A stretch of DNA of 64,000 nucleotides. Source: Streptomyces sp. MBT65. Lineage in GTDB: Bacteria; Actinomycetota; Actinomycetes; Streptomycetales; Streptomycetaceae. Position numbers and translations under genes: made by a program. This document shows positions 61,722 through 64,000 of this stretch, piece after piece. The notes under the pieces were generated by a model that saw only the letters and a program-made list of their open reading frames with translations, made no database searches and was not told the origin of the DNA. The DNA lies in contig NZ_JAENRY010000039.1 in assembly GCF_016612545.1 (NCBI RefSeq), forward strand, positions 1 through 64,000, written 5' to 3'. How positions within the stretch are numbered: the stretch's first letter is position 1; every line of letters starts with the position of its first letter.

Positions 61722-62684
61722 GTGACAGCTCACGACGAGACGCGGGCCCTACGACCGCTGACCCTGGCCTGGGTGAATCGGCAGCTCGGCCCGGGCGAAC
61801 GGATCGTCGGCACCGAGGCGCTGCACGGCGGTATCACCGCCGAGATGCGGCGGCTGACCGTCGCCGCACCGGACGGGGGCACCCGTGCCCTGGTCCTGCG
61901 CAGCTTCGTCGACCCGTACTTCGTGGAGCACGCCGGGGATCTGCTGAACCGCGAGGCCGATGCCCTCGCCCAGCTCGCGGAGACCGACGTACCGGCTCCA
62001 GGACCGGTCGCGATGGATCCGTCCGGCGCGCACTGCGAGTACCCCTCACTCCTCATGACCCATCTGCCGGGCCGGACGGTCTTCACCGACGAGGGTCTTC
62101 AGGCGCGTGTCCCGCTCCTCGCCCGGCAACTCGTGGCGATCCACGCGCTCGACCCCGTCGACCGGCCCGAGCACTACCAGGCGTGGACGACCGCCGACGC
62201 CGTCGTCCCGGCGCAGGGGGCCGACAAGGCGGCGTGGGCCGCGGCCATCGACGTGATCCGCAAACCCGCGCCGCCCTTCGAAGGCCGGTTCATGCACCGG
62301 GACTTCCACCCCGGCAACGTGCTGTTCGACGTGCCGTCCGACGGCTCGGCGGGGCTCCGTATCACCGGGGTCGTCGACTGGGTGCAGAACTCATGGGGGC
62401 CGGCGGACCTCGACGTGGCGCACTGCTCCACCAACCTCGCGCTGCTGCACGGTCCGGCCTGGGGTCTGCGGTTCGCCGAGGCGTACGAGGAGGCCGGCGG
62501 GGTTCTGGCGTCGGCGTCGGGCGAGCGGCTGTACTGGCTGCTGTTGGACGCGCTGGCATTCGCCGGGGAGGTGGGACCCGTGGTGCGGCCATGGCAGGAG
62601 GCGGGGAGGGTGGAGCTGACGACGCGGGCCGTGGAGGAGCGGCTGGACGCCTATGTCATCTCCCTTGTGGACGCGTTGAGTTGA
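61722..62684 (+). CDS. Aminoglycoside phosphotransferase (APH) family protein
   Basis: A 320-residue small-molecule kinase-like protein. The nucleotide-positioning strand (LVLRSFVDPYF) and the catalytic loop with Brenner's motif (FMHRDFHPGNVLF, catalytic Asp) are present, and the metal-binding Asp is in ITGVVDWVQNSWGPADLDVAH. This fold phosphorylates aminoglycosides, choline, homoserine and others, and most genomic copies are not resistance genes. The start is the GTG at 61722. No partner gene indicates its substrate. Confidence 0.88.
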   Translation: MTAHDETRALRPLTLAWVNRQLGPGERIVGTEALHGGITAEMRRLTVAAPDGGTRALVLRSFVDPYFVEHAGDLLNREADALAQLAETDVPAPGPVAMDPSGAHCEYPSLLMTHLPGRTVFTDEGLQARVPLLARQLVAIHALDPVDRPEHYQAWTTADAVVPAQGADKAAWAAAIDVIRKPAPPFEGRFMHRDFHPGNVLFDVPSDGSAGLRITGVVDWVQNSWGPADLDVAHCSTNLALLHGPAWGLRFAEAYEEAGGVLASASGERLYWLLLDALAFAGEVGPVVRPWQEAGRVELTTRAVEERLDAYVISLVDALS

Positions 62685-62820: not shown

Positions 62821-63978
62821 TCAACGCTCCTCGACACCCCGGACGATTCGGCTGATGCGGTCGACCAACTCCGGTGCCCGCTCGGACTGTTCGTCGAGCC
62901 ACTCGCCGAGGCGCTCCTCGACGGCCTCGGCGACACAGATCCGCACCTCGGCGTTGCCCAGCAACTCGCGTGTGGCGCCGAGGAATTCAGGGTGGTCGAG
63001 CTTCACCGACACGACCGCCGTGAGCCCCTCGACGAACCGGTCGGCGCGGGCACCGAGGTCGGACCCGGCCCGCAGTCGTTCCCGCGCGAACGCGGTGACC
63101 GCGGCCACCACTCCGTCGCGCAGGCCGTCCACGTGCGAGCCTCCCTCGCGCGTGGCCCGGCTGTTGGCGAAGCCGCGTATCCGCGTCTCGTCGAAGCCTC
63201 GCCACAGCAGGGCCACCTCCATGGTCCCGGCCATTCTCGCGTCCTCCCACTCGAAGCCGAAGACGTCCGGCTCCAGCGCCGTGCCCGTCTCCGCGTAGAG
63301 GGCGGCCACGAAGTCCCGTACTCCGTCCGGGAATTGGAACAGCACCCGCCGGTGTCCGTACGCCGGGCGTTCGTCGGTCAGCGAGATCGCCAGACCCCGG
63401 TTGAGGAAGGCCAGTTGCCGGAAGCGCTCCGCCAGCACGGAGAACGAGCACCGGGTCGTCTCGAAGATCTCGGTGTCGGGCCAGAAAGAGACGGTCGTCC
63501 CGCTTCCGGTCGCCGAGCCCACAGTGACGGACGGGTCGACCTCGACACCACGCGCGTACTCCTTGACCCAGCGGGTTCCCGCGCCCCGCACTTCGGCCGT
63601 CAGCCGACTCGACAGGGCGTTGGCGACGAAGAGCCCCATGCCGAAGTCGGAGACGACCTCGGTGCGCCGGCCACCGGGCCTGGGACCGGCGTAGAAGCTG
63701 GTCAACTCCCTTTCGAGAGCCGGGGCGTCGGCCTCCACGTCCCCCGCCCCGTCGTCGGCGACCCGTACTCCGCCGTCGGACGTGAGCGTGACGTCGACGG
63801 AGTGTGCGCGGCCGTCCAGGACCTCGGTCACGGCCCGGTCGACGACATCCAACACGAGGTAGTGCAGGCCGCGTTGACCGGTCGATCCGACATACATGCC
63901 GGGCCGCTTCCGTATGGCTTCCCCGCCCTCCAGCACCTTGATGTGCGTGGCGTCGTACTCCATGCCCTCGGCACTCAC
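62821..63978 (-). CDS. GyrB-like protein without TOPRIM domain, ATPase site degenerate
   Basis: A 385-residue protein that aligns with the first half of DNA gyrase B: the ATP-binding GHKL domain (THIKVLEGGEAIRKRPGMYVGST) and the transducer domain (ARMAGTMEVALLWRGFDE, EGLTAVVSVKLDHPEFLG). The TOPRIM and tail domains are absent. Several key residues differ from gyrase. The catalytic Glu is Asp44 and the Mg-binding Asn is Arg48 (LDVVDRAVTEV), the lid is DFGMGLFVANALS instead of GLHGVG, and the transducer Q-T-K is A-T-R. ATP hydrolysis is therefore doubtful. It is unlikely to be a gyrase subunit; role unknown. Confidence 0.82.
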   Translation of the reverse strand: MSAEGMEYDATHIKVLEGGEAIRKRPGMYVGSTGQRGLHYLVLDVVDRAVTEVLDGRAHSVDVTLTSDGGVRVADDGAGDVEADAPALERELTSFYAGPRPGGRRTEVVSDFGMGLFVANALSSRLTAEVRGAGTRWVKEYARGVEVDPSVTVGSATGSGTTVSFWPDTEIFETTRCSFSVLAERFRQLAFLNRGLAISLTDERPAYGHRRVLFQFPDGVRDFVAALYAETGTALEPDVFGFEWEDARMAGTMEVALLWRGFDETRIRGFANSRATREGGSHVDGLRDGVVAAVTAFARERLRAGSDLGARADRFVEGLTAVVSVKLDHPEFLGATRELLGNAEVRICVAEAVEERLGEWLDEQSERAPELVDRISRIVRGVEER

Positions 63979-64000
63979 GAAGACCCCTCCCCTGGTGTTC

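Follow-up and report, generated by a model that had tools for sequence, protein, structure and literature searches.

What is a stand-alone gene for the front half of GyrB doing in a genome that also encodes complete GyrB and ParE, and what could its product do once the residues that serve gyrase are replaced? The question is raised by a gene near the end of the window, the stretch of 64,000 nucleotides of Streptomyces sp. MBT65 that we analysed. The window lies on contig C332 of an 11.25 Mb assembly (833 contigs, GC content about 0.71). A preliminary description made from the letters had presented the product as an ATPase–transducer protein with altered catalytic positions, and had argued that it is not a gyrase subunit.

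Architecture and residues of the short GyrB-like protein

The features of the locus are as follows.

62821..63978, minus strand: short GyrB-like gene of clade A, 385 residues (open reading frame, Pfam, profile search)
63984..63992, minus strand: ribosome-binding-site-like sequence GGGGAGGGG, 5 nt before the GTG, conserved in clade A relatives
63925..63957, minus strand: N-terminal arm, residues 8-18, with the equivalents of Tyr5 and Ile10 (alignment, conservation, omega)
63472..63876, minus strand: HATPase_c domain, residues 35-169, with D44 at Glu42 and R48 at Asn46 (Pfam, alignment)
63634..63753, minus strand: nucleotide loop and ATP lid, residues 76-115, the part least like GyrB (alignment, omega)
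62854..63324, minus strand: transducer domain PF00204, residues 219-375 (Pfam)
62968..62976, minus strand: A335-T336-R337, replacing the QTK loop (alignment)
61722..62684, plus strand: APH-type phosphotransferase, convergent downstream neighbour, outside the system (open reading frame, Pfam)
Contig C332:64012-64046, just outside the window: promoter-like element of 35 bp, TGACCTGGTGTTTT-N12-CTANNNTGG, upstream of the gene

The reading frame is open throughout from a GTG codon and extends upstream of it, to 516 codons from stop to stop; the GTG is supported as the start because the conserved GGGGAGGGG sits 5 nt on its 5′ side. Pfam recognizes HATPase_c (PF02518; 28.0 bits, cut-off 26.4) and the DNA_gyraseB transducer (PF00204; 101.1 bits, cut-off 27) and nothing else, whereas the GyrB and ParE of the same genome add Toprim and DNA_gyraseB_C. 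Thus, as had been described, only the N-terminal half of GyrB is present. With both cut-offs passed and a predicted GyrB-like fold, the protein has the GHKL-plus-GyrB-transducer architecture. PF00204 matches three proteins of the genome, namely full-length GyrB, full-length ParE and this one. The frame is more than a chance one, since its product is 45% identical to the strain's own GyrB over residues 7-373 and has intact relatives elsewhere. The divergent upstream neighbour (L082:9352-9900, equal to C332:64351-64899 of the genome G000, plus strand, beyond the window) has no Pfam match.

The Glu, Asn, lid and QTK residues are needed for ATP turnover in gyrase. Glu42, Asn46 and the other reference positions follow E. 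coli numbering. In the window protein D44 aligns with the general-base Glu42, R48 with the Mg-binding Asn46 and A335-T336-R337 with QTK, while the lid motif GGLHGVG reads VSDFGMG. All four replacements had been noted in the preliminary description and are borne out by the alignment, with the difference that two are general to the family and one is local. As counted in 58 sequences of clade A, 8 of its sister clade B (L145 included) and 17 Streptomyces GyrB, Asn46 is absent from every clade A protein (Arg in 41, Trp in 7, Gln in 5) and from all of clade B (Tyr in each), and Gln335 from both clades altogether. Glu42, however, remains in 40 of the 58 clade A sequences, and Asp replaces it in 6. 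Lys103 and Lys337 are likewise found in none of the 58 (Arg stands at the latter position in 42), Arg76 is lost in all 58 and His116 is kept in one. The Glu, Asn, His and Gln at four checked positions are present in 17 of 17 sampled Streptomyces GyrB.

Other positions persist. Clade A keeps Asp73 (53/58) and Thr165 (54/58) on the adenine side, Gly77 (51/58), and Tyr5 (54/58) and Ile10 (51/58) in the arm. Over the 157 columns with at least 95% conservation among 23 GyrB-type sequences, clade A retains a mean share of 0.61, which rises to 0.87 in the arm, 0.84 in the GTT..DER segment and 0.79 in the RKRPGMY segment, and falls to 0.32 in the lid. As read from these residues, the family has lost Mg and phosphate handling and retains the adenine side and the arm. 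The window protein is degraded beyond most of clade A, lacking the nucleotide-loop Ile-Pro and having Gly at position 136. The Arg136 column itself (T163 of L001), a coumarin-contact position, holds Arg in 40 of the 58 clade A sequences and in all 8 of clade B; the 17 sampled GyrB have Thr in 11 and Arg in 6.

As had been proposed, the protein is not a gyrase subunit: with the gyrB equivalog TIGR01059 it scores 272.8 bits against a cut-off of 882.4. TOPRIM and the C-terminal domain are found neither in the protein nor in the next gene, and the positions of the catalytic Glu, the Mg-binding Asn, lid GLHGVG and QTK read D, R, DFGMG-like and ATR. A downstream TOPRIM gene that would complete the subunit, the finding that would have spoken against the earlier account, was sought; no such gene completes the protein, because the next one is the convergent APH-type phosphotransferase. 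From these replacements we strongly infer that the window protein does not hydrolyse ATP. Since Asp73 and Thr165 are kept in the family, ligand binding may remain.

We modelled the protein with AlphaFold2 (20 sequences). The best model had a mean pLDDT of 75.7 and a pTM of 0.76, three of the five models scored 57-59, and pLDDT was below 50 in residues 1-31, which include the arm, and in part of the lid of this monomer. The best Foldseek matches were mycobacterial GyrB ATPase–transducer structures (TM about 0.65, rmsd about 6); in the models the single domains match GyrB structures and their mutual angle is not fixed. The 43-kDa fragments of GyrB (6zt3 of M. smegmatis, 3zkb of M. tuberculosis, 4prv of E. 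coli) share the same two domains over nearly the whole length, but they are engineered pieces of an active subunit, whereas the family has its own gene and has lost the Mg and phosphate residues. A GyrB-like protein of 369 residues with a solved structure, 3cwv ('DNA gyrase, B subunit, truncated'), gave a weaker match than true GyrB (93.5 versus 239.7 bits). Among the entries listed by searches of an open-access collection, which covers subscription journals little, none named short Streptomyces paralogues of GyrB.

Distribution, descent and selection

We searched 392 genomes of the genus with profile A2, which was built from 20 members with the window protein among its rows. Clade A comprised 47 loci in 45 genomes (478.5-710.1 bits) and was absent from the other 347; below it came clade B (at most 448.6 bits) and full-length GyrB (at most 441.2 bits). 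The 644.5 bits of the window protein follow by construction from its being a row of the profile; its placement in the tree is independent of this. It scores with clade A rather than GyrB, has lost Asn46 and Gln335, and carries the upstream element. Clade A proteins mostly have 377-418 residues, and 46 of the 47 genome loci have no stop inside the match, the exception being L137 with an in-frame TGA. Before counting we removed L119 (the same gene as that of the window) and, as duplicates of L008 and L010, L102 and L114. Residue counts used a trimmed L113, which the promoter counts omit; neither L113 nor L137 enters the omega pairs. The clade A counts include L131 (504 residues) and L143 (start uncertain).

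Other collections gave a similar picture. One scan of genome contigs returned 45 loci, of which 8 were short relatives (56-74% identity, all named Streptomyces) and the rest GyrB- or ParE-like, full length except for two cut by the end of the contig or locus. Among 394 genomes of the class, 5, our own included, had a match at 1e-140, all in one of 137 genera. The best nine of 126 matching PLSDB records were 8 Streptomyces plasmids and one from Kitasatospora (52-64% identity), so that the family spans more than one genus; all seven of these nine whose topology was inspected are linear. The plasmid and genome sets may overlap, as record H9 matches G019:C3 in length and position. On the ten chromosomes for which both positions were available, the 11 copies are distant from gyrB, by 0.80-0.96 of half the circumference. 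When distance is taken to the record end instead, 8 of the 10 reach at least 0.80, and two with an off-centre gyrB give 0.46 and 0.51. In G031 a second GyrB-like match (C1:7344692-7345870) lies inside an unusually long open frame of 1410 codons.

No recurrent neighbour of clade A stood out among the clustered predicted genes listed for 26 loci. Gene order is shared by close relatives (L082, L083, L005, L012), and these four account for all but one of the five loci in which a generic oxidoreductase family recurs. The plasmid pairs H1/H2 and H4/H5 have one common downstream neighbour each, and each pair is closely related. An operon partner for clade A was rejected, as none of the listed neighbours stood out beyond close relatives. 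A phage or defence gene was rejected as well: PADLOC gave no match and PHROGs matched topoisomerase families only. Identity to phage records was at most 36.9% among the 20 listed of 86 matches, and 18 of these 20 were unannotated.

Clade B occurs in 4 of the 392 genomes and is represented in alignment A3 by eight sequences, 68-82% identical to the first and 44-47% identical to the window protein. It resembles the window protein in length and truncation, in the loss of Asn46 and Gln335 (8/8) and in a similar upstream layout; it differs in keeping DNGRGL and, in 6 of 8 sequences, Lys103. The two also differ in setting. At four of nine clade B loci inspected, the gene lies 0.3-0.9 kb downstream of a helicase gene, in the same direction and within about 5 kb of the record end:

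L150:1280-5427, co-directional: helicase and clade B gene, end of linear replicon record
L151:543-4473, co-directional: the same arrangement
L197:544-4490, co-directional: the same arrangement
L095:6113-10787, co-directional: the same arrangement

As L151 and L197 belong to different strains of S. zaomyceticus, these amount to about three independent cases. HA and ResIII domains are present in each of the three helicases scanned, out of four; they may resemble the telomere helicase TtrA. The arrangement is missing from the other five loci (L094, L144, L145, L152, L154), and L094 has a piece of a related helicase about 5 kb from its clade B gene.

The preliminary description had called for a phylogeny of short GyrB-like proteins. 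In a FastTree phylogeny, clade A (58 sequences, support 0.898) and clade B (8 sequences, 1.0) are sisters (A+B, 1.0), and the 17 Streptomyces GyrB (0.999) are their sister; a second tree without support values grouped them identically. The two clades are also truncated at about the same position. Given that they group together next to Streptomyces GyrB, one ancestral truncation of streptomycete GyrB is the simplest reading and is probably the origin of both. The Streptomyces GyrB differ from the family in being full length. The last letters of the leader, CTTC-GTG, are common to the window gene and the strain's own gyrB, which fits descent from gyrB along with its start region.

We then compared upstream regions. 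Of 57 clade A genes, 55 are preceded by the family form of the promoter-like element, TGACCTGGTGTTTT-N12-CTA-N3-TGG, which has 0-5 mismatches in its 20 positions and begins 66-70 nt 5′ of the start codon; it is missing in L139 and L143. In controls, which comprised 57 shuffled upstream regions and 180 unrelated tiles of 300 nt, no match had fewer than 7 mismatches. Four clade B leaders have a similar layout. Within its own genome the element occurs once at up to 3 mismatches, before the window gene, and a looser form at up to 2 mismatches also finds that gene only. Across the 392 genomes the looser form matches in 74 with at most one mismatch, and each of the 23 exact matches is on the 5′ side of a family gene (22 in clade A, 1 in clade B, compared by eye). 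Ten one-mismatch sites away from family genes resemble one another, and the seven inspected (L167, L171, L184, L185, L186, L191, L194) all precede one conserved gene, whose product begins MGEK.(I/V)AGEFDPSGR.RQR. A regulon was not supported; we take the outside sites as one orthologous coincidence.

The gene evolves fast. Against G068, the closest genome with the same gene order, the window protein is 79.8% identical with an omega of 0.67 (NG86) or 0.37 (YN00), whereas the ATPase–transducer part of GyrB is 98.5% identical between the same genomes. Omega is 0.11-0.40 in 12 of the other 13 shared genes; the divergent upstream neighbour has, like the short GyrB gene, a raised value (0.68). Family identity tracks GyrB identity weakly (Spearman 0.29, 153 pairs of 18 genomes), and discordant pairs such as G019–G207 (GyrB 85.8%, family 76.2%) and G065–G019 (GyrB 98.7%, family 53.9%) suggest transfer or unrecognized paralogy. 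For 17 independent close pairs taken together, omega was 0.26 for residues 8-33, 0.43 for 34-75, 0.56 for 76-115, 0.40 for 116-215, 0.58 for 216-316, 0.30 for 317-342 and 0.55 for 343-377. The most constrained segment is thus the arm (residues 8-18) with residues 19-33, although the closest pair of the window gene shows no special constraint there (omega 0.60, 8 changes). For the lid the same pair gave 1.44 on 24 changes, but positive selection in that segment was rejected in view of the pooled 0.56. By these estimates the family gene is under purifying selection overall.

Possible roles

Taken together, the family is one of conserved, dispersed, truncated GyrB paralogues which, by alignment, keep the GHKL–transducer unit and the arm and have lost the TOPRIM half and the Mg and phosphate residues; it appears to be a pseudo-enzyme derived from a topoisomerase B subunit. 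To judge from its sequence and that of its relatives, the window protein is probably a working partner or regulator, rather than gyrase or a dead gene.

In gyrase, the N-terminal arm reaches the nucleotide site of the other protomer. Because the arm, which completes the partner's site, is kept, a partner role is favoured among those proposed earlier; with its own phosphate handling lost, the protein looks like a donor without the acceptor half. As no conserved neighbour was found, the partner would be encoded elsewhere, and GyrB and ParE are the obvious acceptors. The reading that we prefer, possible though short of probable, is that the window protein tunes gyrase or topo IV as an ATP-dead partner at the N-gate. 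The short protein would act in trans, its arm docking on the ATPase domain of GyrB or ParE; the resulting one-sided N-gate would slow or hold ATP-driven closure, and gyrase or topo IV would thereby be tuned in carrier strains. The contrast between the arm (Tyr 54/58, Ile 51/58; share kept 0.87; lowest omega) and the catalytic positions (Asn46, Lys103, Gln335 and Lys337 0/58, His116 1/58; lid 0.32) argues for it, as does the lack of a recurrent neighbour beyond close relatives among those listed for 26 loci. Against it, the arm has a pLDDT below 50 in the monomer model, is not specially constrained in the window's own lineage (0.60 on 8 changes), and its conservation would equally fit a homodimer or residual nucleotide binding; other parts are also well kept (GTT..DER, 0.84; residues 317-342, omega 0.30), and 347 of 392 genomes of the genus do without clade A. 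Mixed gyrase with one ATP-dead protomer is reported to supercoil still, about tenfold more slowly (PMC5983639); free GyrB, which promotes interface swapping and is able to multimerise (PMC11164529), speaks for the reading as well.

Rather unlikely, in our view, is an ATP-independent scaffold, a homodimer that would bind DNA or some partner as Arabidopsis MTOPVIB does with SPO11. According to PMC11077084, MTOPVIB is a degenerate GHKL fold that binds no ATP, dimerises without it and binds DNA; it and TOPOVIBL, both of meiosis, are like the family in being topoisomerase B-type GHKL proteins that lost ATP binding and kept a role, but they are type IIB, eukaryotic and partnered by SPO11, so that the comparison is one of working only. 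The constrained transducer strand (317-342) and the helicase beside clade B in 4 of 9 loci would suit a scaffold; the transducer core (216-316, omega 0.58), however, is among the looser parts, and clade A has no conserved neighbour among those listed. It is improbable that the protein is a sponge for ATP-site gyrase inhibitors such as aminocoumarins, binding the drug and sparing gyrase: the kept Asp73 and Thr165 and the frequent Arg at the coumarin contact Arg136 (Thr in 11 of 17 GyrB) are consistent with one, but Asn46 and Arg76 are lost in all 58 clade A sequences and the window protein itself has Gly at 136 and no nucleotide-loop Ile-Pro.

Still less probable is that the protein acts as a decoy, drawing toxins or phage proteins away from the GyrB ATPase domain, for all that linear plasmids and chromosome arms, fast evolution and patchy presence would suit one. 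The column of the Tyr modified by Fic toxins (Y136 of L001) keeps Tyr in about 3% of clade A, though in 7 of 8 clade B sequences by eye, and PADLOC found no match. According to PMC12136450, the target of the Cpe1 toxin in GyrB is LHAGGKF; this loop is lost in nearly all members (second Gly kept in 1/58 of clade A and 1/8 of clade B), which counts against a decoy for Cpe1. We give an equally low probability to a decaying or neutral duplicate without function. Decay would fit the truncation, the lack of the gene in 347 of 392 genomes, the in-frame stop at a single locus and the raised omega against the closest syntenic copy (0.67 NG86, 0.37 YN00), but 46 of 47 genome loci lack a stop inside the match, pooled segment omega is 0.26-0.58, 55 of 57 clade A genes have the promoter-like element upstream, and the two clades are cut at about the same point.

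Annotation of the plasmid relatives reads 'DNA gyrase subunit B' or 'ATP-binding protein', the latter being also the label of clade B proteins; the relatives that carry the former label are not gyrase. A wider version of the N-gate reading is that linear plasmids and chromosome arms of Streptomyces carry gyrase-derived, ATP-dead N-gate antagonists, one branch with a helicase at replicon ends. These antagonists would dock on the gyrase or topo IV of the host and set how far replicons with ends tethered to each other are supercoiled; we regard this as doubtful. If gyrase is bound, the family would represent a regulator that arose when the enzyme's own subunit was truncated and disarmed. It would then be the counterpart, among bacterial type IIA enzymes, of the ATP-dead topo VI B-like meiosis proteins, and would offer a natural lead against the N-gate.
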